NCBI RefSeq assembly: GCF_007990755.1
Contig: NZ_BJXA01000009.1
Span: 62,001-126,000 of the forward strand
DNA: 64,000 nucleotides
Origin: Nocardia ninae NBRC 108245
Lineage (GTDB): Bacteria > Actinomycetota > Actinomycetes > Mycobacteriales > Mycobacteriaceae
Direction: 5' to 3'
The notes under the pieces were generated by a model that did no database searches, was not told the origin of the DNA, and saw nothing but the letters and a program-made list of their open reading frames with translations. Made by a program: the position numbers and the translations under genes. Shown one piece after another: positions 100-62,726 of the stretch (position 1 is its first letter; each line of letters begins with the position of its first letter).

Positions 100-175
100 T
101 GGAGCCGCCTGCGAGAATCGAACTCGCGACCTTTTCATTACGAGTGAAGCGCTCTACCGACTGAGCTAAGGCGGC
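100..175 (-). tRNA. tRNA-Thr (anticodon CGU), CCA encoded
   Basis: Full cloverleaf on the minus strand: acceptor GCCGCCT/AGGCGGC, D arm with GGTAGAGC, anticodon loop CTCGTAA (anticodon CGU), T arm GCGAG-TTCGATT-CTCGC, then discriminator T and an encoded CCA at 100-102. The first anticodon-stem pair is a C-A mismatch. Unlike the phage cluster at 32-33 kb it looks like a normal chromosomal tRNA, so it could mark an integration site or host DNA at the window edge. That is inference; no duplicated core sequence was found. Confidence 0.93.
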
Positions 176-25840: not shown

Positions 25841-25879
25841 GGGAACTCCGTATTAAGTTGTAAAATCGACGACTTCGGC

Positions 25880-26284: not shown

Positions 26285-26319
26285 AACAAACCCCTCCAGG
26301 GGAAATCAGGAAAAGGAAC

Positions 26320-27069: not shown

Positions 27070-27131
27070 ATTCAGTTTTCCCTGTCGGGTTTGAGATTGG
27101 CCGGACGCGCCGTGGCGGGCATCCACACGAA

Positions 27132-29716: not shown

Positions 29717-29728
29717 ATCAATCCATCA

Positions 29729-31432
29729 CTAACGCAGCCGTGCCGCGACTCGTCGTTTACGCGGCAATCCGATCCCCTTGGCGACAGCGTCCAGACGGCA
29801 TTGCCATGCCAGCACGGCCGCAACAGCGGCGTCGATTTTGTTGGGGCTGTCAGGGTTTTCTTTTGCAATCTGAACGCCCTTGGTGGTGATTCGCCGACGT
29901 GCGTTCAAGACATGGGCGGTCAGTGTCGGGTCGCCGTCGTGGCGCAATTGCTGATCGAGTACGGCGTTCTCGAATTCTTCGAGTGCCTTAACCGATTTCG
30001 TCGCGCGCTCCCCGGTCATCCACCACTCAATCGGATGTGGCCCAGTGGATTTCACGAGCAGGTGTGGGCCGTACCGGGCTTCCCAGTTGGCTACGACCGA
30101 CTCCCAGCGGGCGGGATCGGCGTAGAATCCGACGACACGAAAGTCTGTGAACGCCTTGCGGACTGCCGCCTCGACATCATGTTCAGGCACTTCCCAGCCG
30201 TCCGTGTGGACGCCGGGCGGCTGCTCCCACACCTTGACCGGAAAGACCAGCCCATCCGCGACGCGGCAGCCAATCAATGCTGATGCGTCAGTGACGCCGC
30301 GTCGCCGTTTGCGGCTGCCGTCGAAGCCGAGAACGATCACGTCGTTCGGCTGAATAGGCTTGGTGTCCAACACTTCTGGACCGCACGAGTCCCACTCGTA
30401 CTTCGCGAGCCAGGCATTCTCCGCCGAGGTCGCGGTGTTGAACCAGTAGCGGAAGCTGCTGATCACGTCGTTACGTGGGTCCGCGATGGCCTCCACGAGA
30501 CCGTCGAGGTCGTTCCAGGCCGCCGTGTCGCCGTAGGACTCGGTCAGCGCCTGGCGGACTTTGTCTTCGTCCTCCAGCTCCTCGGGCGTGATCGATCCGT
30601 AGCGGTGGTCGAACAGCTGGCGCGGGTGTTTCTTCAACTTGCCCGCTACTGCGTCGGCGACCAGCTTGTAGGTTTGCTCGGCAATGGAGTCTTCGCCGGG
30701 CGCGTACATCGTGCTGGTTTCCAGTGCGAATGTTTGCGCGGACTTGCGGCGTTTGCGCAGGTTGCGGGTCAGCGTTTTGTAGACCTGGCGCAGTTCAGGC
30801 TTGTTGTAGAGGTGGGTCTCATCGAAGAGAACCAGCGTCTCCTTACCGCCATCTTTGGATGCCGAGGACGCCGAAATCGGGAGGATCTTGCCGCCGCCCG
30901 GAATGAGGATGCGCGTCAGTCCGGCGTCGTCGCGATGACGCATCGCAGCGACGAGCGGACCTTCGGTCACGTTCAGAAGGATGGTGTCGTATACGAGTCC
31001 GGCTTGTCCTTCTTCAGTTGCGACGCAACGGATTTCAGGGGTTTTGAGTACTTTTCCCATCGGTTCGCCGGGCTGGTAGGTGTATTCGAATCCCTGACCC
31101 CACGGATCACGGAACACTTCGCCGCCGGATGCCCAGCCATCGAACCGGCACGGGCCGAGCCCCTCGAAAAGACCTATGTAGGAGGCGATTTCGCTTTTGG
31201 CTGCCCCTTTGGGCCTGCTTAGGAACGCGTGGTCGTAGAGCCTTCTGCCCTCGGTGTCCTGGGCGTACAGATCGACCAGGAATGCGCAGTACTCGTCGAT
31301 GATCGGTGCGCAGCTTTCGCCGCCGACATCACCGGGGCCGTGGACGGCGAAGAACTCCAGCCAGGAGACGGCTAACCATCCAAGGCTGCGATCACGGTCG
31401 TGTTCTGGGTGGGTGACGACATCATGCGGCAC
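29729..31432 (-). CDS. terminase large subunit
   Basis: 567 residues from a GTG overlapping the TerS end by 11 bases. Walker A region R-P-K-G-A-A-K-S-E near residue 70 (K-S/T after a G-A-A loop), Walker B L-V-L-F-D-E-T-H near 200, and the nuclease acid in V-L-G-F-D-G-S-R-K-R near 350. It is the ATP-driven DNA packaging motor and nuclease. Confidence 0.92.
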   Translation of the reverse strand: MPHDVVTHPEHDRDRSLGWLAVSWLEFFAVHGPGDVGGESCAPIIDEYCAFLVDLYAQDTEGRRLYDHAFLSRPKGAAKSEIASYIGLFEGLGPCRFDGWASGGEVFRDPWGQGFEYTYQPGEPMGKVLKTPEIRCVATEEGQAGLVYDTILLNVTEGPLVAAMRHRDDAGLTRILIPGGGKILPISASSASKDGGKETLVLFDETHLYNKPELRQVYKTLTRNLRKRRKSAQTFALETSTMYAPGEDSIAEQTYKLVADAVAGKLKKHPRQLFDHRYGSITPEELEDEDKVRQALTESYGDTAAWNDLDGLVEAIADPRNDVISSFRYWFNTATSAENAWLAKYEWDSCGPEVLDTKPIQPNDVIVLGFDGSRKRRRGVTDASALIGCRVADGLVFPVKVWEQPPGVHTDGWEVPEHDVEAAVRKAFTDFRVVGFYADPARWESVVANWEARYGPHLLVKSTGPHPIEWWMTGERATKSVKALEEFENAVLDQQLRHDGDPTLTAHVLNARRRITTKGVQIAKENPDSPNKIDAAVAAVLAWQCRLDAVAKGIGLPRKRRVAARLR

Positions 31433-33031: not shown

Positions 33032-33108
33032 TCTGGGTGGCGGGATTCGAACCCACGTTCCTCGCTCCCAAAGCGAGAGTCCTGGACCTAGCTGGACGAC
33101 ACCCGGCT
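33032..33108 (-). tRNA. tRNA-Pro (UGG)
   Basis: Acceptor CCGGGTG/CACCCAG with one C-A mismatch, D stem GTCC/GGAC, anticodon arm CTCGC-TTTGGGA-GCGAG (anticodon UGG), T arm GTGGG-TTCGAAT-CCCGC, discriminator A. First tRNA of the leftward cluster. Confidence 0.88.
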
Positions 33109-49819: not shown

Positions 49820-50497
49820 ATGAGCAATGACGAGCTCAATTACTACACCACTCCACGTTCAACACCCTCGGGCAGCGAGACGATCTTCGGAATTTGGGAG
49901 CGTGGAGACTCTTTCAACGATTCGGTGACGCCGTCAACCTTCGTCCCCGAATACCGATACCACATGATGATGAAACTTCTGTCGCTAACCAGCGAGGGCG
50001 ACGCCGTATTCTCAATCGGCTGTGGAAATGCCGCCGTCGAGGGCGCTCTTGTCGAGCGTGGACGGCTGGTCCACGCCGTAGATCTGTTCCCTGAAGCCGT
50101 TTCGCTCGCGCGGGCGAAGGGCGTCGATGCGCATGTCGCGGACTTCTTCCAGACCTCGGCTGCCGACGTTGCGGGCTGCTCGGCGCTGTACGCCGATGGC
50201 ATTCTTGGCCACCTGTTCGACCGCCACGACGGCGTAGGCCCAGCGATTGACAAGCTCACCGATCTCGACCTGAACACCGGTATGCAGCTTGTGTTTTCGA
50301 ACGATGCACCACCCGACCGGAACGCGCCATACGCGGAGCATGAGCGGGTGCCAGGTTTCTGGTACGTCTCCAAGGACTACCTCGCCGAAGAGTTGACGGA
50401 TGCCGGACTCTCCGTCAGCGAGAGCTACTACTTCCCGTATGAGCGACCACTGAGCGGTCTCCGTAACCGCTCCATCTGTGTCGCTCACATTCGATAG
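49820..50497 (+). CDS. SAM-dependent methyltransferase
   Basis: 225 residues; GGAAGGG lies 11 bases before the ATG. Class I methyltransferase fold: motif I V-F-S-I-G-C-G-N-A-A-V-E near residue 60, motif II V-H-A-V-D-L-F-P-E-A near 82, then H-V-A-D-F-F. First gene of the six-gene cassette. It should methylate a small-molecule or DNA-linked intermediate; the substrate cannot be told from sequence. Confidence 0.8.
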   Translation: MSNDELNYYTTPRSTPSGSETIFGIWERGDSFNDSVTPSTFVPEYRYHMMMKLLSLTSEGDAVFSIGCGNAAVEGALVERGRLVHAVDLFPEAVSLARAKGVDAHVADFFQTSAADVAGCSALYADGILGHLFDRHDGVGPAIDKLTDLDLNTGMQLVFSNDAPPDRNAPYAEHERVPGFWYVSKDYLAEELTDAGLSVSESYYFPYERPLSGLRNRSICVAHIR

Positions 50498-50542
50498 AAC
50501 ACATTCTCAATTTCGCTCGAATTACCTGAAAGGGATTCGTCC

Positions 50543-51697
50543 ATGCCATCTTATTCAGACGATGGGATCGCTGAAAGAAGTGAGCACCGAGACCGTCTGT
50601 TGCAGATCGTCTCTAGCGTCGCCGATTCATTGTGGGAGGGTGCCGACGCCAGCGAAGACAGTCGCGTTCTGGTCCCGGAGTCGATACGAATTCTCCGAGA
50701 GTCCGGGCTGATCAAGGCGTTGGCACCGGTAGATGTCGGCGGGTTCCAGGTTGACCCTGTGACCGAGATGGAACTGATCGCCGCTGTCACGGCGATCGAC
50801 GGCGCAACAGGCTGGATGTTCTGGGCGCTGGCTGGCAGCACTGCGCGAGCAGCGTCCATGCTGCCCGAGGACGCGGTCACTGAGGTGTTCGGCAACGGGC
50901 AGTTCCCGCTCATCGCCTACGACGAACGCCCGTACGACAACGTGATTCGCATCCGCGATGGCCTCGCGGAGATCAACGGCACTTGGCGGTTCGGCACCGG
51001 AGTCAGTTGCGCCGACTGGGTGGTTGCGATCGCCCACGCCGAAACATCGTCGACAGGAACCCCATTGATCGCGGCGATTGTGCCAACCAGGCATGTCGAG
51101 ATCATCGACAGCTGGAATGCATCCGGACTGTCGGGCACCGGCACAGTGGGCTATCGGATCGACGGCCTGGTGGTGCCGGAGCTACACACCTGGCCGTATC
51201 CGCCTTCGATGCCGGTACGCGGGGGCGCTCATTTCATCAGTCGCCGTGCGGCGATCAAACACCTCGGCTTCGCGTTGGGTCTGGCGCGCAGTTCCCTCGA
51301 GTGGTTCACCGACCACGTCATCGGTCGGCAACGCACAGCGGTGGTGTCGGCTTCGCTGTTTGCTGACCTGGCACGAGCGCGGCTGGACTTGGACGCCGCG
51401 TATGCGCTTGGCCTGAGCGAGGTCAGCACGATCTGGATCGAAGCGGTGCGAACAAGCCACGTCACCGACCAGTCGTATCTGCGGTTGCGGGCAGTCGCCC
51501 GCCGAGTAACCGAAATCGCTATGGATGTGTGCGCACTGGCGGCGCGGTACGGGGATGCGTCGATGCTCGCCCGTCAGAACCCCCTGCAGCGGAACCTGCG
51601 GGATATCACGGCCGCCGCCGCGCACGCCGAGGTGAGTGCTGTGGTCCTGGACGAGTTCGGGACAGAACTGATCAAACAAGGTGGGGAGGAACGTTAG
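50543..51697 (+). CDS. acyl-CoA-dehydrogenase-fold flavin monooxygenase
   Basis: 384 residues; GAAAGGGA lies before the ATG. The signature L-A-P-V-D-V-G-G-F-Q-V-D-P near residue 60, A-I-D-G-A-T-G-W-M-F-W near 88, and P-L-Q-R-N-L-R-D-I-T-A-A-A-A-H at the end (the N-L-R-D-I helix) belong to the group D two-component flavin monooxygenases (HsaA/DszC/KijD3 kind), not to true acyl-CoA dehydrogenases. Such enzymes hydroxylate carbon or oxidise amino groups, with a separate flavin reductase that is not seen in the cassette. Confidence 0.8.
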   Translation: MPSYSDDGIAERSEHRDRLLQIVSSVADSLWEGADASEDSRVLVPESIRILRESGLIKALAPVDVGGFQVDPVTEMELIAAVTAIDGATGWMFWALAGSTARAASMLPEDAVTEVFGNGQFPLIAYDERPYDNVIRIRDGLAEINGTWRFGTGVSCADWVVAIAHAETSSTGTPLIAAIVPTRHVEIIDSWNASGLSGTGTVGYRIDGLVVPELHTWPYPPSMPVRGGAHFISRRAAIKHLGFALGLARSSLEWFTDHVIGRQRTAVVSASLFADLARARLDLDAAYALGLSEVSTIWIEAVRTSHVTDQSYLRLRAVARRVTEIAMDVCALAARYGDASMLARQNPLQRNLRDITAAAAHAEVSAVVLDEFGTELIKQGGEER

Positions 51698-51699
51698 CT

Positions 51700-53613
51700 A
51701 TGAACAACCCTGTGATGACAGCGTTGCGGCCGGTGTACGCGCCGATCGTCGATGCTGAGGGCGGGTACTTCACGCTCAGGGATGGTCGCCGTTTCATGGA
51801 TCTGGCATCGCAAACGCTGAATCTGGCTTTCGGGCAACGCGCGGCGGCTGTCACCGACGCTGTGATCGGACAGGCTCGATGTGTCCAGTTCGCCTCCAGT
51901 CGGTTCTCCACGGTGCCGTTTCTGGAGTTGAGCGCTGAACTTGCCCGGCTGGCCCCAGCGGGCTTGGATGCGGTGTCGCTGAAGATGAGTGACGGAAGCG
52001 ACGCCGTGGAGACTGCGATGAAGATCGCGATGCTGCACACTCGCCGCCCCCATATCGGATGCCTGCCGGGAGCGTGGCACGGAGAAACCCACCTGACTCT
52101 CGGTCTGGCCAGTAGCCATCGTGGACGCATCCTTGCCGACGACCGTGTCGCGGTGCATGCCGATGAGCCGACGATCGCGGCACTGACGCAGCTGGTCGCG
52201 GCTCGCCGCGATCTGGCAGCGGTGATCATCGATCCGTTGATGGTGGCTCAGGGCCTGCCTGTCGAGGACATGCGCGAACAGCTACAGCGGCTGCGCGAGA
52301 GATGCGACGGCGCGGGAACGCTGCTGATCTTCGATGAGATCCAAGCGTTCGGATGGTCGGTTGGCGGGCTTTTCACCACTGATGTGCACGGAGTCTCCCC
52401 TGACATCGTGTGTCTGGGTAAGGCGTTGGGGGCAGGTATGCCGCTGGCGGCCGTCGTCGCTCGCGACGAGCTATCGGCGGTGCTGGGTTACAACGACGCG
52501 GAGTTCACCGGAGGTGGTGGGCCGTTGGCTTGTGCGGCCGGGCTGGCGGGGCTTGAGGCATTGATCGGGATACAGGACGAGCTGCCGGTGCGGGCTGAGC
52601 AGTTCGGTGCCGCGCTCTGTGAGGTCTTCGACCGGTCGAAGTTCGACGTTCGCCGGGTGGGTCTGGTTGCCACGATCGCTCCGATTCAGGGGCGTTTGCG
52701 TGAGACCTGGGCCAATCAGGTCGTCGAGGGGGCAGCTGCCGCTGGGCTGTTCGTTCGCCTCACCGATCAGAATCGGCGATTGCTGGTCAAGCCTCCACAC
52801 GTCCTGGCGATGGAGGAATTGCGGGCAGGGCTTACGCGGTTGGGGCGCATAGCCGATGAGGCGGCCAGTCGCGTGTTGTGGCGGCTGCCGGGATCGCTCG
52901 CCGACGAGACGACAGTGGTACGCAAACCTCTGAGGTCGAACCGGCATGCGGGTTACGTGACCGCGCTGCTGGACGTTGCCGCCGGGGATCTGGGAATGAA
53001 GGTCCGTGGGCCGGGTGCACAGCAGAAGCTCACCAGGGACCTGGCGGGCATCGGCGTTCCTGTGGCACCGATGTACGCGGTGCCTGGTGCAGATGCCGTG
53101 GACTACGGCTTCGTGCCTGGGCGCACCCTTCAGTGGGTGCTGTCGGCGCCGGAGACACCCGATTCGTGGGTGAACGGACTGGCATTGCGGCATCTGGAGG
53201 TGGTGGTTCGTGCCCACGACAACGGTATGGTGATTGGCGATCGGTGGCCAGGTAATGCCATTGTGAACAACCGCGCCGAGCTGACGCTGATCGATTTCGA
53301 GCTTGGCTACGACGGGCCGATCCATGTCGCGGCGCTGTTCGAGGAGGCATTCTGCATCTTGCAGACTCTGGTAGCGATTCCCGCTGATCGGAGGATCAGA
53401 GACGATCTGTCGGCGCGGATGCTGGACCAGCTGGTAGCGCGGCACGGGAGCCAGCAGGCGGCAGCGATGCTGCGCGGACTTGTCCGGTTCTACGGTGATC
53501 CGGCTCGGCCGGTGCATTCGCACTCGGACCCCGCGTCGCATTACACCGGGCTACTGTTGGCGGCATTGTCTCGGGTCACAGGCGATCAGCACCAGGACAA
53601 CACACCGAATTGA
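51700..53613 (+). CDS. class III aminotransferase fused to a kinase-like domain
   Basis: 637 residues; GGGGAGGA lies 9 bases before ATG 51700. Residues 1-~400: PLP aminotransferase of the ornithine/glutamate-semialdehyde type, with S-D-G-S-D-A-V-E-T-A near 105, L-L-I-F-D-E-I-Q-A-F-G near 210 and the PLP lysine in C-L-G-K-A-L-G-A-G near 245. Residues ~440-637: protein-kinase-like fold with R-A-H-D-N-G-M-V-I-G-D and P-G-N-A-I-V-N-N...L-I-D-F-E, matching the H-x-D...N and D-F-E catalytic elements of small-molecule kinases. It should transaminate and phosphorylate one pathway intermediate. Confidence 0.82.
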   Translation: MNNPVMTALRPVYAPIVDAEGGYFTLRDGRRFMDLASQTLNLAFGQRAAAVTDAVIGQARCVQFASSRFSTVPFLELSAELARLAPAGLDAVSLKMSDGSDAVETAMKIAMLHTRRPHIGCLPGAWHGETHLTLGLASSHRGRILADDRVAVHADEPTIAALTQLVAARRDLAAVIIDPLMVAQGLPVEDMREQLQRLRERCDGAGTLLIFDEIQAFGWSVGGLFTTDVHGVSPDIVCLGKALGAGMPLAAVVARDELSAVLGYNDAEFTGGGGPLACAAGLAGLEALIGIQDELPVRAEQFGAALCEVFDRSKFDVRRVGLVATIAPIQGRLRETWANQVVEGAAAAGLFVRLTDQNRRLLVKPPHVLAMEELRAGLTRLGRIADEAASRVLWRLPGSLADETTVVRKPLRSNRHAGYVTALLDVAAGDLGMKVRGPGAQQKLTRDLAGIGVPVAPMYAVPGADAVDYGFVPGRTLQWVLSAPETPDSWVNGLALRHLEVVVRAHDNGMVIGDRWPGNAIVNNRAELTLIDFELGYDGPIHVAALFEEAFCILQTLVAIPADRRIRDDLSARMLDQLVARHGSQQAAAMLRGLVRFYGDPARPVHSHSDPASHYTGLLLAALSRVTGDQHQDNTPN

Positions 53614-53626
53614 CGGAGGTTTTCGA

Positions 53627-55459
53627 ATGTGCGGCATTGTGGGGATGACCTCACCAAATGCGAACGTCACCGGATCGGCGGCGACGCGTTTGGCGGTCCT
53701 CGAATACCGCGGCTACGACTCCTGGGGCGTGGTCGCCCTAACCGAGGATGCTGGGCTATCGGTTACCAAGGACGTGGGGTCCATCGGCAGGGCGCTCGGA
53801 GCGGGTCTCAATGACCGGCTCCCGGCGTCGTCGCTGGCGCTCGGGCATACCCGATGGGCTACCCACGGCGGTGTCACTCAGGCCAACGCGCACCCGCACC
53901 TGTCCTTCGACGGTTCGGTGGCGATCGTTCACAACGGAGTGATCGAGAACCACGCGCAGCTGCGCCGGGAGTTGGAAGCCGACGGCATCAGTTGTGTGTC
54001 TGGCACCGATTCCGAGATTGCGGCGCACCTGATCGCGCGCTTCCTCGGACAGGGGCACTCGATTGTGGAAGCCATTGCGGCGGCGACGAGGCGGCTGACT
54101 GGCGAGTACGCGTTGGCGGTATTGGCCGTGGCTGACCCGGTGACGGTGTGGGGAGCCAAACGCAAGAGCCCGCTACTGGCTGCGCACGACGGCACGCTGG
54201 GTGTGTTGGCTTCGGATCAGATGGCGTTGGATGCGACCAGCGTTCTGATCCTGGAGGACGGTGACATTGTGGCGCTTCGCCCTGATGGAGCCGAGCTGTT
54301 CACCACGGGCACCGATGGCGCTCCCGAGCCGATTGAGCGTGCGTACACCCGCCTCGATGGCGGGCACGAGAAAGCGGACAAGGGCCAGTACCCGCATTGG
54401 ATGATCAAGGAGATCCACGAGACCCCGGATGCGGTTCGCAACGCGCTGACCTTGCCCGCTGATCAGTTCTCCTCGGTTCTGGCCAGCGACCGTCCGGCGA
54501 CGATCATCGGTGCGGGCAGCGCCTATTACGTGGCGTCGATGGGGTCCTACTTGTTGTCCTCGCTGGCGGGTGTGCGAGCAACAGCACTTCCTGCCGACGA
54601 AGCGGAGTACTTGACCCATTTTCGGGCCGGTGACCCGCTCATCGCGGTGTCACAGAGCGGGGAGACCTTCGACACCTTGGAAGTGTGTCGCGCTGCTGTC
54701 GCTGAGGGCGCGGTGCTGACTTCCATCTGCAACGTGCCGAATTCGACCCAAGAGCGGTTGGCCACCCACCGATTGCAGCAGCGCTCCGGCCCGGAGATCT
54801 GTGTGCTGTCGACCAAGAGCATCGTTTCGCAGGTCGTGCTGCTGGCGCGTCTGGCGTTGGAAACCGGCCGCGCGAACGGCACCGTGACCGATGCGGGGTA
54901 CCGCCAGCACATGGAGTCGCTGGAGCGGCTGCCCGAGACCCTGACCAACTGCATCGCAACCCTCAGCACAGCCGTGCAAGGGCTGGCGGCGAAGTACTCG
55001 ACGGTGGCCGACTGGTTCTTCCTTGGTCGGGGCATCCTTTACCCCGCAGCGTGCGAAGGCGCGTTGAAGTTCAAAGAAGTCAACTACCACCATGCCGAAG
55101 GCATGGCGGCTGGGATGTTCAAGCACGGCACCATCTCGTTGATCGACGAGAATTTCTACACGGTGGCGTTGTTGCCGTCCAAGCAGGCTGCGCCGGACCG
55201 CTACGGGGCAACGTTGGCAGCAGTGAGCGAGGTCGCGGCCCGCAGCGGACCGGTGATCGGTATCGGTCCTGCCGACATCGAGGCCGACGACGTGGCCGAC
55301 TTCGTGGAGTACCTGCCGCTGCCCTATCACGGCGACGACATCGCCGATCTGGTGTTGCAGCTGGTCGCCGGGCAGATGCTTGCCTACTACTGCGCGCTGG
55401 ATCTGGGCCGTGAGATCGATCAGCCCAGGTCGCTGGCCAAGTCGGTCACCGTGCGTTAG
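53627..55459 (+). CDS. glmS: glutamine-fructose-6-phosphate aminotransferase homologue
   Basis: 610 residues, full length for the family; GGAGG lies before the ATG. Starts M-C-G-I-V-G with the nucleophile Cys2, then L-E-Y-R-G-Y-D-S-W-G, H-T-R-W-A-T-H-G and H-N-G-V-I-E-N (glutaminase domain), two SIS sugar isomerase domains (S-Q-S-G-E-T near 390) and the C-terminal P-R-S-L-A-K-S-V-T-V-R. All key residues look intact. It should make glucosamine-6-phosphate or an analogue, or serve as a second, resistant GlmS. Confidence 0.93.
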   Translation: MCGIVGMTSPNANVTGSAATRLAVLEYRGYDSWGVVALTEDAGLSVTKDVGSIGRALGAGLNDRLPASSLALGHTRWATHGGVTQANAHPHLSFDGSVAIVHNGVIENHAQLRRELEADGISCVSGTDSEIAAHLIARFLGQGHSIVEAIAAATRRLTGEYALAVLAVADPVTVWGAKRKSPLLAAHDGTLGVLASDQMALDATSVLILEDGDIVALRPDGAELFTTGTDGAPEPIERAYTRLDGGHEKADKGQYPHWMIKEIHETPDAVRNALTLPADQFSSVLASDRPATIIGAGSAYYVASMGSYLLSSLAGVRATALPADEAEYLTHFRAGDPLIAVSQSGETFDTLEVCRAAVAEGAVLTSICNVPNSTQERLATHRLQQRSGPEICVLSTKSIVSQVVLLARLALETGRANGTVTDAGYRQHMESLERLPETLTNCIATLSTAVQGLAAKYSTVADWFFLGRGILYPAACEGALKFKEVNYHHAEGMAAGMFKHGTISLIDENFYTVALLPSKQAAPDRYGATLAAVSEVAARSGPVIGIGPADIEADDVADFVEYLPLPYHGDDIADLVLQLVAGQMLAYYCALDLGREIDQPRSLAKSVTVR

Positions 55460-55478
55460 CCGACCACCCCCCAACCAT

Positions 55479-55514
55479 AAGAACCCCGACCGGTTTCGAC
55501 CGGTCGGGGTTCTT
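55479..55514 (+). terminator. 16-bp perfect hairpin after the GlmS gene
   Basis: AAGAACCCCGACCGGT with its exact complement around a TTCG tetraloop, 20 bases after the GlmS stop. Ends in TTCTTTCG. Strong intrinsic terminator within the cassette. Confidence 0.85.
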
Positions 55515-55579
55515 TCGTTGTGGGCGTATGGCGGCGGAAAACCACACAGAATCCATTGATACGAAAGGGGTTATCTCAA

Positions 55580-57127
55580 TTGCGTTGGCTACTGATTCCC
55601 ATGCAACCCACACCGAACGGCCGCCTGCACATCGGGCACGGAGGCGGACCGTACCTGCGAGCCGATGTCATCGCCCGCGCGTTGCGCCGCGACGGCGAAC
55701 ACGTCGAGATCATCAGCGGCAGTGATGCTTACGAGAACTGGGTACTCGCCGATGGCCTCGCCACTGGGCGCACGCCCGAACAGACCTGCGCGGTGTATCA
55801 CGCAGGGATCAAATCTGATCTGGATCGGCTTGGTGTCGAGCTGAATCTGTGGGTCGACCCTCTCAGCGCCGAGCACAACAGTGGCTACGTCCACGTTCAG
55901 GAACGATTGCTCTCGACGCTGTCTGATAGTGGTCGCGCCGAGCTGTTCACCGAGCGGGTGCCTTTGGGTGTGGAATCCGGTCGGCCGCTGATGGGAGTGT
56001 GGATCGCGGGCGAGTGCCCCAACTGTGGCGCGGCGGCAGGCGGGAACTCCTGTACCGCATGCAGTGACAGCTTCTCCCCCGACTTGCTGCGCAATCCGCG
56101 CTCGCGGTTGACGAACGAGCAGATCACTTGGGTTGATCGCCCGAATTGGTTCGCTCCTGCCCCCCGCGCGGTGTTGGAAGCGTTGGCCGCTACCGGCCTG
56201 CCGGGGCAGTTCCAGGTTCCGGTGCAGACGTTCCTCGACAGAAAGGGCGCGCGAATCCGGTTGTCGCTGCCTGGCGAATGGGGCGTGCCTAGCTCGCTGG
56301 CTCCGACTGATTCGGTGCTGTCGAACACCTACTACGGCTATAGCGTGTATTGTGGCCAGCTCTACAGCGACCTGCGTTCCGGTGTCGGCAACGCGTTGGA
56401 CCGCGATTCCGGAGTCACCGTGGTCGGGCTGTTCGGCAGCGACAACTCGATCGCCGGGTTGGTGGCTCCGCAGGTGCTGGCGGTTGGTACCGCGTTCAAG
56501 GCGTTCGACCACACGGTGATCAACCACATGCTGCATTTCGAGGGCCGCAAATGCAGCACCAGCCAGCAACACGGCATCTGGATCGAAGACGTGATCGACA
56601 AGACCAACGTCAGCAGCGACGAGCTGCGCTACTGCCTGACCCAAATCCCGTTGGACCGCAACGTTTCCGACATCGATACCGGAAGGATCGTCACCACGGT
56701 CAACCGGCTGAGGGTGTGGCGAACAGCCACATTGGGGCCGGTGCTGGAGGCGCTGAAGCCTGGTGCCAGCACTCCGACAGCGCCAGTTGAGTTGCGGGCA
56801 GCACTTGAGCGCCAACAGCAATACTTGCGACCTCCGGTGGTGGACCTGGTCGATGCAACCGATGTTCTGACTGACTGGATGTTCAAGCGCGATCCCCAGC
56901 ATTGCGAGACTGAGGCCGTTGCCGAATGGCTGCTCGGTGTCGCACTTCTGGGCGCGCCGATCCTGCCGATATTGGCCGGGCAGCTGTGGACGGAACTCGG
57001 GTTGCCTGGTGTCCCATCGCGTTCCGTACTGAATCACGCGGTGCAGCTGTCTCGAACGTCAGCGGGGCTTGATCTGAGGATGCATACGCCTCTGAATGCC
57101 GAGGACATCGCGGGCATCGCCAGATAG
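55580..57127 (+). CDS. methionyl-tRNA synthetase-like protein with altered KMSKS motif
   Basis: 515 residues from a TTG with AAAGGGG about 9 bases upstream. P-N-G-R-L-H-I-G-H-G-G-G carries the HIGH motif, and C-P-N-C-G...C-T-A-C the zinc knuckle. The KMSKS loop reads K-C-S-T-S-Q-Q-H-G-I-W, so the second lysine is lost. The C-terminal helical domain lacks the usual anticodon-contact sequence (N-x-Y-I-D...P-W). This fits a duplicated MetRS recruited to activate an amino acid in a biosynthetic pathway, or a drug-resistant copy. Length is close to a normal MetRS. Confidence 0.85.
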   Translation: MRWLLIPMQPTPNGRLHIGHGGGPYLRADVIARALRRDGEHVEIISGSDAYENWVLADGLATGRTPEQTCAVYHAGIKSDLDRLGVELNLWVDPLSAEHNSGYVHVQERLLSTLSDSGRAELFTERVPLGVESGRPLMGVWIAGECPNCGAAAGGNSCTACSDSFSPDLLRNPRSRLTNEQITWVDRPNWFAPAPRAVLEALAATGLPGQFQVPVQTFLDRKGARIRLSLPGEWGVPSSLAPTDSVLSNTYYGYSVYCGQLYSDLRSGVGNALDRDSGVTVVGLFGSDNSIAGLVAPQVLAVGTAFKAFDHTVINHMLHFEGRKCSTSQQHGIWIEDVIDKTNVSSDELRYCLTQIPLDRNVSDIDTGRIVTTVNRLRVWRTATLGPVLEALKPGASTPTAPVELRAALERQQQYLRPPVVDLVDATDVLTDWMFKRDPQHCETEAVAEWLLGVALLGAPILPILAGQLWTELGLPGVPSRSVLNHAVQLSRTSAGLDLRMHTPLNAEDIAGIAR

Positions 57128-57141
57128 CCGCGAACACCAAG

Positions 57142-57176
57142 GCGGGGCGGGCAGTGTGCCCGCCCCGCTTTTGTTT
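57142..57176 (+). terminator. 12-bp hairpin and T tract after the MetRS-like gene
   Basis: GCGGGGCGGGCA / TGCCCGCCCCGC with a GTG loop, then TTTTGTTT. The next ribosome binding site (AAAGGAG) follows at once. Confidence 0.9.
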
Positions 57177-57194
57177 GAAAGGAGCAGTGACATC

Positions 57195-57983
57195 ATGTAT
57201 TTCGACAAACTGCACGGGGCTGGCAATGACTTCATTCTCGTCGACAGCGTCGAAGCCGGTTGGGCAGATAGAGCAGAAGAGCTGTGCGCTCGCCGCACCG
57301 GCATTGGTGCGGACGGACTGGTCATTGTCAGTCGGCTCAGCGCCGATCCGGTGGTTGTGGATGTGGCGGTGTTCAACCGCGATGGTTCGGTCGGTCCCAT
57401 GTGCGGCAATGCGTTGCGCTGTGTGGCGTGGGTCGTGGCCAGGGACTCGTCGGTGGCGGAGATGACGCTGATCATGTCCGGCGTTGAGCATCAGGCGCGG
57501 GTAGACGCTGCGGGGGTATGGGTGACCGCCGAGGTCGGCGAGGTTCACTCGGAGTTCCTGCGTGCCGAGGTGGATGGGCACACGATGTGGTTCGACTCGG
57601 CTTACACCGGCACCGAGCACATGGTGACGATCGTGGAGAACGTCGATGAGGTCGATGTAGTCCGATGGGGCCGGGTAGTTCGCCACGATCGCGCACTTCC
57701 GTTGGGAGCGAACGTCAACTTCATCGAAGCTGTCGGCCCTCGAGAGCTCAAGATCCGGACCTATGAACGAGGAGTGGAGCAGGAGACCCTGTCCTGTGGC
57801 AGTGGAGCCGTTGCTGCGGCGGCGATTGCGAGTACACGTGATCTTCTCGAAGGTGATGGGCAGATAACCGTCCACAATCGTTCCGGGACACCACTGTTGG
57901 TGCGTCCCCACTCCGTACGGACCGCCCGAACTCGCTGGCTCGGCGGCCCTGTTACCCACGTCTTCTCCGGTCGGCTGACCTAG
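57195..57983 (+). CDS. diaminopimelate epimerase-like protein
   Basis: 262 residues; AAAGGAG lies before the ATG. Both catalytic cysteines are present: G-P-M-C-G-N-A-L-R-C near residue 73 and L-S-C-G-S-G-A near 200, with F-D-K-L-H-G-A-G-N-D-F at the start and G-I-G-A-D-G-L near 37. This is a complete cofactor-independent DapF-type amino-acid epimerase. In the cassette it could invert an alpha-centre of a diamino acid, or it could back up host meso-diaminopimelate synthesis. Last gene of the cassette. Confidence 0.9.
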   Translation: MYFDKLHGAGNDFILVDSVEAGWADRAEELCARRTGIGADGLVIVSRLSADPVVVDVAVFNRDGSVGPMCGNALRCVAWVVARDSSVAEMTLIMSGVEHQARVDAAGVWVTAEVGEVHSEFLRAEVDGHTMWFDSAYTGTEHMVTIVENVDEVDVVRWGRVVRHDRALPLGANVNFIEAVGPRELKIRTYERGVEQETLSCGSGAVAAAAIASTRDLLEGDGQITVHNRSGTPLLVRPHSVRTARTRWLGGPVTHVFSGRLT

Positions 57984-58469: not shown

Positions 58470-58838
58470 TCAGGCTTTTTCCCAGATGTCGACGAGCTTG
58501 GTGGCGGGCCGGACTTCCTCGAATGCGCCGTCCCAGTGGCTGCCGCCGTGGGATTCGTAGACGCCGTGTTTGCGGAAGTGCTGGATATCGCGGTTCGTGT
58601 GTTCGACCTGGAAGACCATGTAGGTGGGCTTTTCCCAGTCGCCTTCGCCGCCGCCTTCGCAGTCGGACACGGTGATGCTCATGTCGCCGAGGGTGATTTT
58701 CGTGTCGTCGGACCAGACGAGGTGTTCATGGACCGTCCACCAGCCCTGGCTACCCCGGTATTCCTGACGGACCTTGGGGTCACGCTCTCCGGTAGGCCAG
58801 TTCGCCAGCAGCTCTTCGAGTTCGGAGGCGGTGATCAC
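58470..58838 (-). CDS. hypothetical protein, paralogue of 58835-59200 (122 aa)
   Basis: GTG overlaps the upstream stop (GTGA). From G-G-E-G-D-W onward it aligns with the neighbour: both have a beta strand, F-(R/K)-(K/R)-(H/N)-G-(V/W)-Y-(E/A)-S-H, then a short acidic part and V-D/T-(I/V)-W-E at the end. Function unknown; the conserved aromatic and His residues suggest a small folded domain. Confidence 0.65.
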   Translation of the reverse strand: MITASELEELLANWPTGERDPKVRQEYRGSQGWWTVHEHLVWSDDTKITLGDMSITVSDCEGGGEGDWEKPTYMVFQVEHTNRDIQHFRKHGVYESHGGSHWDGAFEEVRPATKLVDIWEKA

Positions 58839-59200
58839 GCGATGGCCTCCCACACGGTGACGACCTTGTCCACGCCGTGGACTTCCTCGGTCGGTCCTTC
58901 GTAGTAGCCGCCGTCGTGGGAGGCGTACCAGCCGTTGCGCTTGAAGGTGCGGACCCTGTCGTGTTCGTCGGTGATGGTGAAGATGAACCAGTAGTCGTCG
59001 CCGGAGCCTTCGCCGCCGAAGTCGTCGACGATGCGGGCGGTGCCGATGTTGGGCAGGATGGCGGCTTTGTCGCCGTAGCTGATGGCCTCGTAGAACTCGT
59101 CCCATGCGGTGTTGCTGGCGTCGCTGTGGTAGTCGTCATCCCAGTCCTCGTCGTCGAGGCGGGCAACGGCTGCGCCGATGTCATCGATGGTGTAGCTCAT
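58835..59200 (-). CDS. hypothetical protein, paralogue of 58470-58838 (121 aa)
   Basis: ATG at 59200; GGGAA lies upstream and an ACAACTGAATA element at 59213-59223 touches it. Acidic N-terminal half (D-D-E-D-W-D-D-D-Y-H), then the shared domain G-G-E-G-S-G-D-D-Y-W...N-G-W-Y-A-S-H-D. Function unknown. Confidence 0.65.
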   Translation of the reverse strand: MSYTIDDIGAAVARLDDEDWDDDYHSDASNTAWDEFYEAISYGDKAAILPNIGTARIVDDFGGEGSGDDYWFIFTITDEHDRVRTFKRNGWYASHDGGYYEGPTEEVHGVDKVVTVWEAIA

Positions 59201-59212
59201 CGTCGTTTTCCC

Positions 59213-59223
59213 TATTCAGTTGT
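59213..59223 (-). repeat. ACAACTGAATA element
   Basis: A perfect copy 12 bases before the ATG at 59200, directly followed by GGGAA. It shows the element also serves the right-hand leftward operon, 26 kb from the nearest late-operon copy. A variant (AAAACTGAACA) lies just before the ATG at 62726. Confidence 0.8.
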
Positions 59224-59444
59224 GGGTGTTTGGTTTTCAGTGGCGTTTGTGGATGAGCGGGCAGTCTGGTGTCGGAGCCGTTATTCCGGTTCGTTGCCAG
59301 CGCCTTCCGTGCGGGCTACGCTGTCGGCAACTCCCTTTCCGAGGACGACGCAAGAGCGTCGTTTGTGGCGAGAATCGGCGAGCCAGAGGACCGTCTACCC
59401 TGCGCACAGCGGGAGAGATATAGGCGGTCCTCGCTCATGGAAGT

Positions 59445-60629
59445 TCACGCCGCAGTTGCGGTGACCGGTTCGTAGACCGTGCGGGTTTCGGTACGGGGTG
59501 TGACCTGGTAGAGCCTGCCGTCCCAGGTGCAGTCCCAGGAGTCCCAACAGCCGTCGATCCGGTAGTGGAGCTGCCCGCCCGTCTCGAAATCGATTGCCAC
59601 GACCAGGTACTGGTGTGTCCTGCCAGCGTTGCAGCCGTGGTCGGTTTGGCGAACGTGGCCCAGGCCGGGGACATCGAAGCCGTCCGGGTGCTTCGCGCAC
59701 ATGTCCCTGATGGCCATCCAGCCGGTGCCGGGTCCATACGAGGTGTCGAATTCGTGGGCGAGCAACAGCCGCTCGACGTGCTTGTCATCCATGTCGGTTG
59801 TTTCCTTCCGGGCGGGGAGATCGGTTGGTGCGGTATCGAGTTCGATCAGGTAGCTGGTGTTGGAGAGGTGGTGGGCCAGGTAGTCGTGGTCGGGGCGCAG
59901 GAACGTCAGGTAGTTCTCGGCGACGAAGCGGGAGGACCAGCCTTTGAGCAGGCTGGTGATGGTGCGTTGCAGCGCCCACCTGTAGGCCCACGTCGGGGAT
60001 GCGGTGTAGCCGGAGGGGATGAGGATGCGCTCCAGCGCGGTCGCATAGATCTCCTCCCGAAACAGTCGGACCTTCTCTTCGAATGCCAGTGCGCGGATCT
60101 TGCCCATGTCCATCTCGACTTCCGCGCCATCACGAAGCACGTTCTCGTACAAAGGCTTTCCGGGCGTGTAGGCCACCGACCGGTGCAGGCTGTCGTGGTC
60201 GTAACGTCGTTGCACAGCGTCGGTGAAGAACGAGCGGCTGTCCTGGTTGAGGTTGATGGGTTTGCGTCCGTGCAGCCGTTCCCAGGCCGGGCGCAGCAGC
60301 TTGTAGAGGTCCTCGTCGACCTTGCCGCCGCAGGCGCGCAGGATCACGAAGTCGCGCATGTGTTTGCGCCAGGAGCCGTTGCGCAGCTCCCACGCCGAGT
60401 GGCTGAGCTTGAGCGTTGTCAACTCGTCGAGCGTGGCCACGCGGTTGGTACCTTCGGGCAGCCAATCCTCGAAGGTCACGTCCCACAAGATGTCGACCTT
60501 GAAGCCGAAATCCTCATTGCCGATACGCATTTCGACGTTGTCGGCGATGTAATCCCAGTCCTTGGGGTCGCGACCGAAATCCACGCGATGTGAGTGGGCC
60601 GCCCATGACCCGATCAGCAGAGTGCGCAT
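59445..60629 (-). CDS. nucleotidyltransferase-like phage protein (394 aa)
   Basis: ATG overlaps the upstream stop (ATGA). N-terminal L-L-I-G-S-W-A-A-H...D-W-D-Y-I and F-K-V-D-I-L-W, then T-L-D-E-L-T-T-L-K-L-S-H: the G-S...D-x-D...D arrangement of nucleotidyltransferases, as in the DUF7275-type proteins common in actinobacteriophages. The C-terminal ~130 residues form a second beta-rich domain. Given the kinase-phosphatase and ligase in the same operon, it may act in RNA end processing; that is inference. Confidence 0.6.
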   Translation of the reverse strand: MRTLLIGSWAAHSHRVDFGRDPKDWDYIADNVEMRIGNEDFGFKVDILWDVTFEDWLPEGTNRVATLDELTTLKLSHSAWELRNGSWRKHMRDFVILRACGGKVDEDLYKLLRPAWERLHGRKPINLNQDSRSFFTDAVQRRYDHDSLHRSVAYTPGKPLYENVLRDGAEVEMDMGKIRALAFEEKVRLFREEIYATALERILIPSGYTASPTWAYRWALQRTITSLLKGWSSRFVAENYLTFLRPDHDYLAHHLSNTSYLIELDTAPTDLPARKETTDMDDKHVERLLLAHEFDTSYGPGTGWMAIRDMCAKHPDGFDVPGLGHVRQTDHGCNAGRTHQYLVVAIDFETGGQLHYRIDGCWDSWDCTWDGRLYQVTPRTETRTVYEPVTATAA

Positions 60630-60958
60630 CAAGCCGCCTGCTTGTAGTGCACGGCGTGGAGGAGTTGGCGGGCGTAGCTGACCGCGCCGACGACGATGGC
60701 GTTTTCCACGGTCATGCCCAGGTATTCGGCGGCTTCGTAGCAGACGGCCAGCTCGTCGTCGGTGAACCGCAGATCCATGCTCTCGACAGTCGGTCCTGTC
60801 CGCTCCAACCTGGCGAACACGGTGTCGAAGGTGTCGGTGGTCGGAAGGGTGCCGGAAGCGAGCAGCGGGCGTTCGATCTCGGTCACGAAGTACCGGATGA
60901 CGGCGCAGAAGTCCCGGACACGCTCGCTGTGCGTGGGGTTGGTCAAGTCAGTGTCCAA
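60629..60958 (-). CDS. hypothetical protein (109 aa)
   Basis: Mostly helical (V-R-D-F-C-A-V-I-R-Y-F-V-T-E-I, V-C-Y-E-A-A-E-Y-L-G-M). Overlaps both neighbours. No family is recognised. Confidence 0.6.
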   Translation of the reverse strand: MDTDLTNPTHSERVRDFCAVIRYFVTEIERPLLASGTLPTTDTFDTVFARLERTGPTVESMDLRFTDDELAVCYEAAEYLGMTVENAIVVGAVSYARQLLHAVHYKQAA

Positions 60959-61220
60959 TCGTCGTGCCCATGGCGTGGTAGAGGTCCACGCGGGGCGGCA
61001 GGATGTTGAGAATGTGTGCGGCGGTGTACACCACAGCGAACGTCGTTGCAGTGCGGTGTCTTTCGAGGAGACGATCGAAGGCGTGGGAGATGAGTTGCCC
61101 TTCGGGGGCGGCGATCTCGTAGGCCAGGATCGCCACCGCCAAGCCGATGAGTGCTCGCTCCCCCGTGAGGTGCCGTCTCCACACGATCGGTCCGGTCGTG
61201 GCCGGTGTGGGTGAATCCAT
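60948..61220 (-). CDS. hypothetical protein with hydrophobic segments (90 aa)
   Basis: ATG six bases after the upstream stop. Two moderately hydrophobic stretches (A-L-I-G-L-A-V-A-I-L-A-Y-E-I and F-A-V-V-Y-T-A-A-H-I-L-N-I-L). Weak ribosome binding site; probably coupled translation. Confidence 0.5.
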   Translation of the reverse strand: MDSPTPATTGPIVWRRHLTGERALIGLAVAILAYEIAAPEGQLISHAFDRLLERHRTATTFAVVYTAAHILNILPPRVDLYHAMGTTIGH

Positions 61221-61225
61221 GCCGG

Positions 61226-61453
61226 TTACCGGGTGAGCAGGGTTTCGAGTTCAGCGAAGATCGGCTTGGCCAGTTCCCGCATGGTTTCGCGGATCTGGCC
61301 TTGCACGTCGGCCAGGTCGGCGGCCGAGGGCTCGGGGCTGGCCGAGAGTTCGTGGTCGACGACGATCAGCCAGATGTCTGCGAGGGGGCAGACTTCGCCG
61401 AGCTGGTAGGTCACGGCGTAGAGCGCGGCGAGGCGCTTCTGGAGATCAGTCAC
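61226..61453 (-). CDS. hypothetical protein (75 aa)
   Basis: GTG at 61453 overlaps the end of the small gene upstream, with AGGA about 10 bases before. Helical (L-Q-K-R-L-A-A-L-Y-A-V-T-Y-Q-L-G-E-V-C). The longer open frame to 61564 is not used because its added part is Thr-rich antisense-like sequence. Confidence 0.55.
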   Translation of the reverse strand: MTDLQKRLAALYAVTYQLGEVCPLADIWLIVVDHELSASPEPSAADLADVQGQIRETMRELAKPIFAELETLLTR

Positions 61454-61583
61454 AGTCGAAGTCCTCAGTCTCGCGCGGGTATTCGTCGTCGGCGTCGTAT
61501 CCGTCGTAATCGGTGTAGTAGTCGCCGCAGTCGCATTCGCACGGCTTGCCGAAACGGGGCTCATAGGGATCGCAGCCGCTCAC
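61446..61583 (-). CDS. small acidic Cys-rich protein (45 aa)
   Basis: GTG at 61583 overlaps the upstream stop (GTGA), and the stop overlaps the next start. Sequence P-C-E-C-D-C-G-D-Y-Y-T-D-Y-D-G-Y-D and a C-terminal D-C-D: five Cys and many Asp/Tyr. Overlaps on both sides make it convincing. Perhaps a metal-binding or charge-mimic protein. Confidence 0.6.
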   Translation of the reverse strand: MSGCDPYEPRFGKPCECDCGDYYTDYDGYDADDEYPRETEDFDCD

Positions 61584-61801
61584 CGGGTCTCCTCCAAGTC
61601 GATGATGAAACGCAGCCCGAACCGGCGCGCGATCAGGTCGAGGTGGCGCAGCAGCTGGCCCGCGATGGCGAGCAGTTCTCCAATCGGAGGTTGGCCCCCG
61701 CCATCGGCCGGGGTGTCTGCCAGGGGGATGCCGATCACCTTCGCGGGTGCGGGTTCGCGCTGGAACCGGTCGGCCACGGGGTTCGGGTCAGAAGCTGGCA
61801 T
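61580..61801 (-). CDS. hypothetical protein (73 aa)
   Basis: ATG at 61801 with GGGAG upstream, overlapping the end of the kinase-phosphatase gene by 14 bases. Pro-rich start and a C-terminal amphipathic part (L-L-A-I-A-G-Q-L-L-R-H-L-D-L-I-A-R-R-F-G). No family is recognised. Confidence 0.6.
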   Translation of the reverse strand: MPASDPNPVADRFQREPAPAKVIGIPLADTPADGGGQPPIGELLAIAGQLLRHLDLIARRFGLRFIIDLEETR

Positions 61802-62726
61802 CAGGGTCTCCCACCCGGAACACGGTGAGCCCCAAGGCATGCCACATCCGGACAACCTGCTGCCGGTCGTCGATGACACCGATGATGTGGTAGCGGTCGC
61901 GGACCTCATCGAACATCTTGTACTTGACGACCGCGTCGGGCCTCTTGTCTCCCTCGTCGCGCAAAGACAGTTCGTCCCAGGCGATTTCCTCGTTGTCGAG
62001 CCACTGGGCGCAGTCTTCGATGCAGATGTCGTCGCGTCCGGAGAAGATCAGGATGTTGATGCCGTCGTTACCGGTGTCGTAGTCGTGGTCGCGGTCGTAG
62101 TGCCAGGCAAGGGCGTTGACAAGGGTCTTGGTGGCCTCGATGACCGGGTCTTCGAGGACGCGGGTGTAGTCGAACGGATTGCGCCAGGAGTTGTCGGCCA
62201 GTGTGCCGTCGAGGTCGACGATGATGGCCCTGGGCTTGGTCACGTCCGGCACGTACGGGGTCAGGTCGAGCCGGTCGAAGGTGGGGGTGATCGGTGGCCA
62301 CGGCGGCGGGAACCGCCGGAAGTAGTCCTTGATCGCTTCCGCCGGAACGGTGTGCCCGCCAGCGGCGGCGCGGGCCTCGACGTTGGCGATGCACTGCTCT
62401 TCGGTCGCGACCACATCCAGGCAGCGGAACTGCGCGCCGTGGGCGTGTGCGAAGTCGGCCCAGCGGCGACCGTCGCGGACGCGTCCATGGGTGGCGTCGA
62501 TGATCGGGCTCCAGCCTTTGCGAAGCCCTACTTCGGCGCACGCGGTCATCAGCTCGGTGATCAGGTTTTCCTGCCGGTAGGACAGGATGCCGGACTGGCC
62601 GAAGACCATCCGCCGGAAGTCGTCGCGGGAGAAGCGGGCGGAGCCGGGTTCGGAGCGGACCAGGGAGTACGCGAGTTCGGTCTTACCTGCGCCTTGCGGG
62701 CCGCGCATGATGGAAAGTGTTGTCAT
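61788..62726 (-). CDS. polynucleotide kinase-phosphatase (T4 Pnkp type)
   Basis: 312 residues. N-terminal P-loop kinase: M-R-G-P-Q-G-A-G-K-T-E (Walker A), S-R-D-D-F-R-R near residue 33, D-A-T-H near 77. C-terminal HAD phosphatase: V-D-L-D-G-T-L-A-D-N near 170, F-S-G-R-D-D near 228 and G-V-I-D-D-R near 287. Kinase-then-phosphatase order is that of T4 polynucleotide kinase. It heals broken RNA ends (5' kinase, 3' phosphatase). An AAAACTGAACA element lies directly before its ATG. Confidence 0.9.
   Translation of the reverse strand: MTTLSIMRGPQGAGKTELAYSLVRSEPGSARFSRDDFRRMVFGQSGILSYRQENLITELMTACAEVGLRKGWSPIIDATHGRVRDGRRWADFAHAHGAQFRCLDVVATEEQCIANVEARAAAGGHTVPAEAIKDYFRRFPPPWPPITPTFDRLDLTPYVPDVTKPRAIIVDLDGTLADNSWRNPFDYTRVLEDPVIEATKTLVNALAWHYDRDHDYDTGNDGINILIFSGRDDICIEDCAQWLDNEEIAWDELSLRDEGDKRPDAVVKYKMFDEVRDRYHIIGVIDDRQQVVRMWHALGLTVFRVGDPDASF

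Follow-up and report, generated by a model that had tools for sequence, protein, structure and literature searches.

The subject of this study is a row of six genes in Nocardia ninae NBRC 108245, found in a stretch of 64,000 nucleotides (contig NZ_BJXA01000009.1, positions 62,001 to 126,000 of the forward strand) that is here called the window and is numbered G000:C9:62001-126000 in our own series of genomes (G), contigs (C) and loci (L); its source is a 9.7-Mb draft genome in 204 contigs. The six genes appear to constitute a natural-product cassette borne by a temperate phage. Its ligase is of known lineage, while its architecture departs from two of the features that define the hydrazine-synthetase family. 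Tentatively, we regard them as genes of lysogenic conversion that would make an antimetabolite, either an aminoacyl-hydroxylamine (hydroxamate) or a related compound, a reading that falls short of probable and in which every chemical step is predicted.

All six open reading frames (ORFs) were intact and on the plus strand, spanning 49820-57983 exactly as the preliminary description had placed them. They encode, in order, an S-adenosylmethionine-dependent methyltransferase (MT; 225 aa, 49820-50497), a group-D-type flavin monooxygenase with the acyl-CoA-dehydrogenase fold (FMO; 384 aa, 50543-51697), an aminotransferase-kinase (ATK) consisting of a class III aminotransferase with a C-terminal kinase-like domain (637 aa, 51700-53613), a GlmS-like paralogue (610 aa, 53627-55459), a MetRS-like protein predicted to be an amino-acid-activating ligase (515 aa, TTG start, 55580-57127), and a DapF-like epimerase/racemase with both cysteine motifs, MCGN and SCGSG (262 aa, 57195-57983). 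The protein names given earlier agreed with family scans, which assigned the FMO to Acyl-CoA_dh_2/HsaA-like proteins, the ATK to Aminotran_3 and the MetRS-like protein to tRNA-synt_1g. The GlmS-like protein scored above the NCBIfam glmS cut-off and the DapF-like protein also above its cut-off; the MT barely passed Methyltransf_11.

The prophage around the cassette

The cassette sits in a real temperate Bantamvirus-like prophage, with a pair of attachment (att) sites, an empty attB in relatives and phage genes on both sides, which bears out the earlier view that it is phage-borne. The left att repeat (82 bp, 135..216) overlaps the 5' half of a minus-strand tRNA-Thr(CGT) gene (100-175), and its right copy, also 82 bp, falls outside the window, at 93655-93736 in window numbering (C9:155655-155736); the two form a perfect direct repeat, whose identity was checked. 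The prophage is 93.6 kb in size and has a GC content of 0.620, compared with 0.684 and 0.680 in the flanking host stretches. When the two flanks were joined into one query (att copy at query 196-277), they aligned unbroken across the empty site in relatives, best in G548 (query 23-592, 93%) and also in G501 and G478 (85% each). Some match to the joined flanks was obtained in 116 of 118 genomes, own included, the junction not being spanned in all of them. Split matches of the same joined tRNA-Thr flanks (G464:C1:205-50091, G534:C23:732310-778056 and G558:C414:53623-69998) suggest that this attachment site has received further insertions, with sizes of about 49, 45 and 16 kb.

To the left of the cassette, a Bantamvirus-like structural region on the minus strand (24803..31432) contains the genes for the major capsid protein (24803-25840), the portal (28187-29716) and the large terminase (29729-31432), the last 65% identical to TerL of Gordonia phages DatBoi and Bantam. 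Bantam structural and lysis proteins matched the prophage at 9.6-33.6 kb, with the structural genes co-linear, and its polynucleotide kinase, RNA ligase, WhiB, lysin B, helicase, RecT and RecE matched at 61.8-84.1 kb in the right flank. The right-hand phage genes (DUF7275, DUF7427 and polynucleotide kinase; 58835..62726) are on the minus strand, opposite to the cassette. The polynucleotide kinase (61788-62726) and RNA ligase (about 63.7-65.1 kb, extending beyond the window edge) of the RNA-repair operon described earlier are indeed present, but on the opposite strand. The Bantam integrase region was unmatched in the prophage at E 1e-8, this being the only integrase search made. Four phage-borne tRNA genes (Trp, Gln, Asn and Pro; 32456-33106, minus strand) adjoin the terminase.

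The cassette occupies the point at which the plus-strand and minus-strand gene blocks of the prophage converge. Genome G035 has two related prophages, with terminases 75% and 69% identical to ours, and neither contained a cassette gene in the 40 kb compared of each. The second of them (contig C3) shares with our prophage the plus-strand genes equivalent to 31-45 kb and the minus-strand genes equivalent to 62-74 kb. A simple gene caller based on GC content at third codon positions (GC3) places the ends of its two blocks about 34 bp from each other. In Bantam, a Doc-type toxin-antitoxin pair is found near the corresponding junction. The natural reading is that the cassette is a moron at the plus/minus junction.

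Three hairpins with 12- to 14-pair stems, all on the plus strand, accompany the cassette. One of 14 pairs with a T-rich tail (49757-49790) lies immediately upstream; one of 13 GC-rich pairs with a T-rich tail (55481-55512) was read from the sequence between the GlmS-like and MetRS-like genes, where the scan gave its inner part; and one of 12 GC-rich pairs (57142-57168), between the MetRS-like and DapF-like genes, is followed by TTTTGTTT on the plus strand. Loose terminator-like sites were no more frequent than in shuffled sequence (6 versus 5.6), so that only these long stems count. No Rfam element was matched across 47-60 kb.

The four-gene core and its predicted cupin-less ligase

The four central genes, FMO-ATK-GlmS-MetRS, were found with order and strand conserved in five other loci, namely those of Nocardia bovistercoris (L040, genome G475), three further Nocardia genomes (G529, G469 and G549) and Frankia sp. 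AiPa1 (L041), indicating that they do not stand together by chance. Identities to the cassette proteins were 50.5-54.5% for FMO, 49-59% for ATK, 61-75% for GlmS and 51-58% for MetRS. In G529 and G469 the core is on a contig of megabase size, and in the remaining three on contigs of 494, 52 and 16 kb (the 16-kb contig being that of Frankia). No phage structural gene was recognised among ten flank proteins sampled from these five loci, whose PHROG matches were of regulator-type, DNA-binding or unknown-function classes, or absent; on this sample of the flanks, the core is not phage-specific. The six-gene unit proposed initially is real as a gene set, but resolves into a four-gene core and two additions, MT and DapF. 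An ordinary chromosomal block, named at the outset as the alternative to a phage cassette, describes the core elsewhere as far as its sampled flanks go, but not the N. ninae copy, whose own flanks are phage.

The core is rare. Within the genus, 5 of 150 genomes had ATK, our own among them; in a phylum-wide set of 396 genomes, our own was the only one. A scan of genome contigs with ATK gave 62 relatives, three of which matched nearly over their full length (L040, L041 and L042). Eight loci in all had a full-length or nearly full-length ATK: six with the full core, the 14-kb plasmid pTunz7 of Thiothrix unzii, and L042 with ATK alone. On pTunz7, a DUF3800 gene is followed by ATK and then directly by GlmS (L037:3274-6969); it was the only one of 1402 plasmid records matching ATK over at least 80%. 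At L042 (9027-13988), ATK adjoins an inositol-phosphatase-family gene, a zinc alcohol dehydrogenase and a P-loop kinase-like gene (the last assigned by eye), and GlmS, MetRS and FMO are absent from that locus.

The MetRS-like protein keeps the HIGH motif and a four-Cys zinc-knuckle pattern, while KCSTS replaces the KMSKS of the host's true MetRS. In a tree of 28 proteins (midpoint-rooted, with several long branches), it fell within the cupin-associated lineage, in a nine-member clade (the six core proteins plus L035, L036 and L038) with 100/100 support. By motif and tree, in comparison with cupin-bearing loci, it is thus assigned to the hydrazine-synthetase lineage (KFSTS/KCSTS), which refines the earlier description as MetRS-like. 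According to the available text of PMC8664883, the MetRS-like domain of PyrN alone, without tRNA, forms an O-acyl ester that yields N-glutamyl-N6-hydroxy-lysine, an amide, and the N-N bond is made by the cupin. The core resembles the hydrazine synthetases PyrN, Spb40/Tri28 and RHS1 in its K-[FC]-S-T-S motif (at the loci compared), in having an FMO in the gene set and in tree lineage. It differs from them in two defining respects. Hydrazine synthetases have a zinc-binding cupin, fused or adjacent, whereas none turned up at any core locus with a threshold as lax as E 10, in a search that covered 164 kb of our contig and 16-22 kb at each of the five others. With the same profile, built from three adjacent cupins that also count among the comparison loci, a cupin was found at 10 of 11 other MetRS-like loci; two of these matches were weak (E 2e-4 and 4e-4), and the single miss, L006, covers only 3.2 kb. 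Hydrazine synthetases also work with a lysine/ornithine N-hydroxylase, in place of which the core has an FMO of the acyl-CoA-dehydrogenase fold; no N-hydroxylase of that type was found among the six cassette proteins, to which this search was confined within the prophage. In addition, the core has an extra GlmS paralogue and an aminotransferase-kinase.

The GlmS-like protein is 37% identical to the host GlmS and, together with the five other core copies and that of Thiothrix, formed a clade with 100/100 support apart from 13 ordinary GlmS proteins (the host's and 12 viral ones; 3 of 15 viral loci, L160, L197 and L213, were dropped by a filter on length and C-terminus). Its glutaminase and isomerase domains are complete, as in ordinary GlmS. 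The C-terminus reads PRSLAKSVTVR in all seven GlmS-like proteins and PRNLAKSVTVE in all 13 ordinary ones, and SQSGETFDT occurs in 7/7 and 0/13, respectively. The description as a complete GlmS was thus right about the domains, though the protein is not an ordinary GlmS. The changed residues fall in the sugar half, at positions with a presumed role in the enzyme, and we infer that the sugar substrate is changed.

The aminotransferase half of ATK has the motif GKALG in all eight copies compared, its lysine presumably holding the pyridoxal phosphate (PLP). In the kinase half, which had no Pfam match, GDRW[PA]GN...IDFE was present in the five Nocardia copies (IGDRWPGN...IDFE in our own) and GDRWPGN...IDF in Thiothrix; a structure model of this half, built from three sequences (predicted local distance difference test score [pLDDT] of 80), gave weak matches to the protein-kinase fold (best E 0.009). 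For the FMO, a profile of the core copies matched among solved structures best to Rv3094c (3e-31), XiaF (8e-31) and HsaA (8e-25; listed as a 3-HSA hydroxylase), followed by 4kcf (8e-12), which we take to be the nitrososynthase KijD3, and by DnmZ (1e-5). VlmH of the valanimycin pathway presumably has the acyl-CoA-dehydrogenase fold as well. In the parts of PMC11705231 and PMC7347517 that deal with these precedents, AlnG, a flavoenzyme annotated as acyl-CoA-dehydrogenase-like, is proposed to be an amine N-hydroxylase, and VlmH, with VlmR, is assigned the same function. The flavin amine N-hydroxylases of alanosine (AlnG/AlaD) and valanimycin (VlmH) are likened to the FMO by description, not by sequence. 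We suggest N-oxidation for the FMO because of these precedents and of its MetRS-like partner.

The viral collections searched, which may omit records of our own or very near genomes, yielded no copy of the core or of the whole cassette. In pattern scans of viral_contigs, the MetRS-like protein (protein and alignment queries) and FMO (alignment query) had no relatives, the 16 relatives of ATK all matched the aminotransferase part only, and the best of 80 kept among 164 GlmS relatives was 37% identical. GlmS was searched among viruses in viral_contigs only, and MT and DapF in the phage collection only (50,697 records). In the phage records, the MetRS-like protein had 9 matches, FMO 2 and ATK 56, none covering 80%; DapF had 29 matches (best 38% among the eight listed) and MT none. 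The idea that ordinary GlmS and MetRS genes act here as phage metabolic helpers was rejected on the motifs, the trees and viral GlmS identities of at most 37% (80 kept of 164). In plasmids, the MetRS-like protein matched in 307 records, and two of these gene neighbourhoods were inspected.

The methyltransferase and the DapF-like epimerase

In tabtoxin, the methylase presumably contributes a carbon that comes from methionine. The best relatives of the cassette MT, in Nocardia-genus genome G554 (65%) and in Nonomuraea gerenzanensis (58%), both lie in tabtoxin-type gene sets. In G554, the MT gene comes after a gene for a 458-aa protein with a HELGH motif, which has no Pfam or NCBIfam match and is TabC-like by position only, and before LysA-like, DapD-like and DapC-like aminotransferase genes; AsnB-like and TauD-like genes lie in the vicinity. 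In N. gerenzanensis, consecutive MT, LysA-like, DapD-like, aminotransferase-like and AsnB-like genes are accompanied on the other strand by TauD-like, GMC oxidoreductase and TabC-like genes. In the available part of PMC3927611, the tabtoxin set is given as TabC-TblA-TabA-TabB-TabD with TblS, TblC and TblD, and the text seen of PMC5431353 describes an N. gerenzanensis cluster as highly homologous to it; because the gene sets agree, that published cluster is probably the stretch found here. By the gene order of its best relatives, the cassette MT is predicted to be of the TblA type. Compared with the tabtoxin-type clusters (P. syringae, N. gerenzanensis and G554), the prophage thus has an MT 58-65% identical to two actinomycete copies and a link to paralogues of the diaminopimelate (DAP)/lysine pathway. 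Of the seven G554 proteins (TabC-, LysA-, DapD-, aminotransferase-, AsnB- and TauD-like proteins and MT), it shares only the MT, and has a DapF-like protein instead: the six others, including the LysA-, DapD- and beta-lactam-synthetase-like ones, were unmatched on the prophage contig at E 1e-5.

Scans with MT gave hits in 2 of 148 genomes of the genus (our own and G554), in 1 of 396 phylum genomes (our own) and in 3 of 72,556 plasmid records. The DapF-like protein is 38% identical to the host DapF over 214 residues and 56% identical to a protein in G510, whose neighbourhood contains no other cassette gene; at E 1e-40, it occurred in 2 of 148 genus genomes, own included. Taken jointly, the MT and the DapF-like protein argue for an amino-acid part of the DAP/lysine type.

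Several further neighbourhoods were seen around MT relatives. A Yersinia frederiksenii plasmid (L231:9842-16365) has a tabtoxin-related gene set, made up of a TblA-type MT, an ATP-grasp protein, a DAP decarboxylase, an aminotransferase and a DapD-like match of 30 residues. On a Gloeothece plasmid, the gene immediately preceding the MT homologue is of the acyl-CoA-dehydrogenase family; its product is 21% identical to the cassette FMO over 244 residues. At L229 (G554:C5, reverse complement, about 0.4-18.6 kb), the tabtoxin-type set is joined by genes for a chlorinating enzyme (scoring above the TIGR01762 cut-off) and for proteins that resemble a fatty-acyl-AMP ligase and, as judged by eye, KASIII.

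Proposed pathway and its alternatives

In the pathway we propose, the GlmS paralogue and ATK would build an amino compound by glutamine- and PLP-dependent amination, and ATK, though not in every copy, would phosphorylate it. FMO, together with a host flavin reductase, would then N-hydroxylate the amino compound, and the MetRS-like protein would adenylate an amino acid and transfer it to the hydroxylamine without tRNA. In the absence of a cupin, the O-acyl ester may rearrange to an N-acyl-N-hydroxy (hydroxamate) amide, as with the isolated MetRS-like domain of PyrN; since that domain alone yields an amide, a cupin-less system could stop at a hydroxamate-type product unless a host cupin helps. 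In the phage version, the TblA-type MT and the DapF-type epimerase would tailor a DAP/lysine-like amino-acid part, and the likely purpose would be an amino-acid antimetabolite or other diffusible compound favouring the lysogen. Synthesis of a modified amino acid, as first suggested, remains the best reading of this biosynthetic gene set inside a temperate-phage genome. The wider claim is more doubtful: that a new class of natural-product pathway is being carried, and diversified, by a temperate phage, in which a cupin-less MetRS-like ligase, a group-D N-oxygenase, a GlmS paralogue and an ATK would make a hydroxamate amino-sugar or amino-acid antimetabolite, with MT and DapF added by the phage, and in which lysogens would gain a chemical weapon or shield.

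Several observations weigh against this pathway. MT and DapF are absent from the five other core loci, so that a single six-step pathway is not demonstrated. The catalytic motif of the ATK kinase half is lost in Frankia and L042, so that phosphorylation is not universal. By its structural matches, FMO is nearest to Rv3094c, XiaF and HsaA, with the nitrososynthases far lower, and C- or S-oxidation would be equally open to it. The split between the core MetRS-like proteins and the cupin-bearing L035 is unsupported (60/6), and the structure model of the MetRS-like protein was unusable (pLDDT 43). No exporter or flavin reductase was recognised in the cassette, and the promoter scan found no sigma-70-like promoter for it. 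Composition is ambiguous as well. GC3 was 0.749 in the cassette, 0.743 in the plus-strand phage genes, 0.772 in the structural genes, 0.858 in the right-hand phage genes and 0.862 in the host, and the codon-profile distance of the cassette was 0.151 to the plus-strand (early) phage genes and 0.166 to the host. In GC3 the cassette matches the plus-strand phage genes, but its codon profile is nearly equidistant from phage and host, and because the right-hand phage genes themselves have a host-like GC3, composition leaves the age of the cassette in the phage unsettled. A further point concerns two other MetRS-like proteins of the same genome (G000:C34:37324-38379 and G000:C100:14111-15205), in frames of about 930 aa that both have cupin matches (one, in C100, weak), and whose cupin might serve in trans.

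The last point underlies the main rival explanation, an improbable one in our estimate, in which the cassette belongs to a normal hydrazine (N-N) pathway and a host cupin-MetRS protein supplies the cupin. The available text of PMC8664883 reports that cupin and MetRS parts function as separate proteins and that some cupins accept a non-native partner, and in L035, the nearest relative outside the core, a cupin-like gene adjoins the MetRS-like gene. Against this, the cupin is missing from the stretches examined at all six core loci in two genera (the search elsewhere having extended to our own genome only), and the MetRS parts of the two host proteins are only 27-30% identical to the cassette protein. 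The selected function of the product could instead be anti-phage chemical defence (superinfection immunity), which we hold to be distinctly unlikely. As far as the text seen of PMC12360287 goes, natural products of actinomycetes are able to block phages, and defence islands contain lanthipeptide clusters. Large proteins also lie near two cores: one in G529, beyond the core (L136:707-4441, minus strand), with an NTPase-like stretch and AAA_16 below the Pfam cut-off, and one in G469, on the other strand than the core (L137:93-3764, plus strand), with HNH below cut-off and PADLOC effector-type matches over the HNH part. Such neighbours at two of five other core loci are weak evidence, however, and within the cassette the PADLOC matches were weak and short and were confined to MT and ATK.

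Two alternatives would take the genes out of small-molecule synthesis altogether. That the copies of GlmS, MetRS and DapF serve as resistance genes of the target type, shielding the host from a compound, is very unlikely: all three are paralogues of essential enzymes, and the sugar half of the GlmS-like protein has changed residues, but this protein is only 37% identical to the host GlmS, belongs to a deep clade common to Thiothrix and stands between ATK and the MetRS-like gene in all six core loci, and the MetRS-like protein has no KMSKS and belongs to a lineage whose studied member, PyrN, acts independently of tRNA in the part of PMC8664883 available to us. Even less likely is a role in modifying phage DNA or tRNA, for host takeover or anti-restriction. 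The phage location next to RNA-repair genes and the presence of aminoacyl-tRNA-synthetase-like and methyltransferase genes would fit it; yet the core occurs elsewhere with no phage structural genes among the sampled flank genes, the MT relatives are located in tabtoxin-type clusters, and none of the six proteins matched a nucleic-acid-acting family apart from the MetRS-like fold. The DNA-base modification considered in the preliminary description accordingly found no support, the family scans having shown no DNA-base- or nucleotide-acting enzyme family in the cassette. Finally, an assembly artefact, or an ordinary host cluster mistaken for phage, was considered and rejected as having next to no chance of being right: the genome is a draft in 204 contigs, two relatives carry the core on megabase contigs and the cassette is hardly farther from the host in codon use than from the phage, but against this stand the att repeats, the empty sites and the phage genes that flank the cassette left and right, repeats and genes being on a single contig.

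A full-text literature search found no paper on this gene combination, only literature on its parts. Work by Dragos from 2021 reportedly deals with biosynthetic clusters on phages. A survey of actinobacterial prophages, in the text seen of PMC10023795, found small putative biosynthetic clusters in 13 of 2112 genomes and names class I lanthipeptides; the cassette shares with these clusters its prophage-borne biosynthetic genes but is not of the lanthipeptide type. Few actinobacterial prophages have thus been reported with biosynthetic clusters, and the one studied here appears to encode a small-molecule pathway of its own, with a four-gene core that few actinomycetes have. If the MetRS-like protein works without a cupin, it would represent a branch of the ligase family with a different bond-forming outcome, and would make it directly testable whether phages trade metabolites, beyond toxins and peptides, with their hosts.

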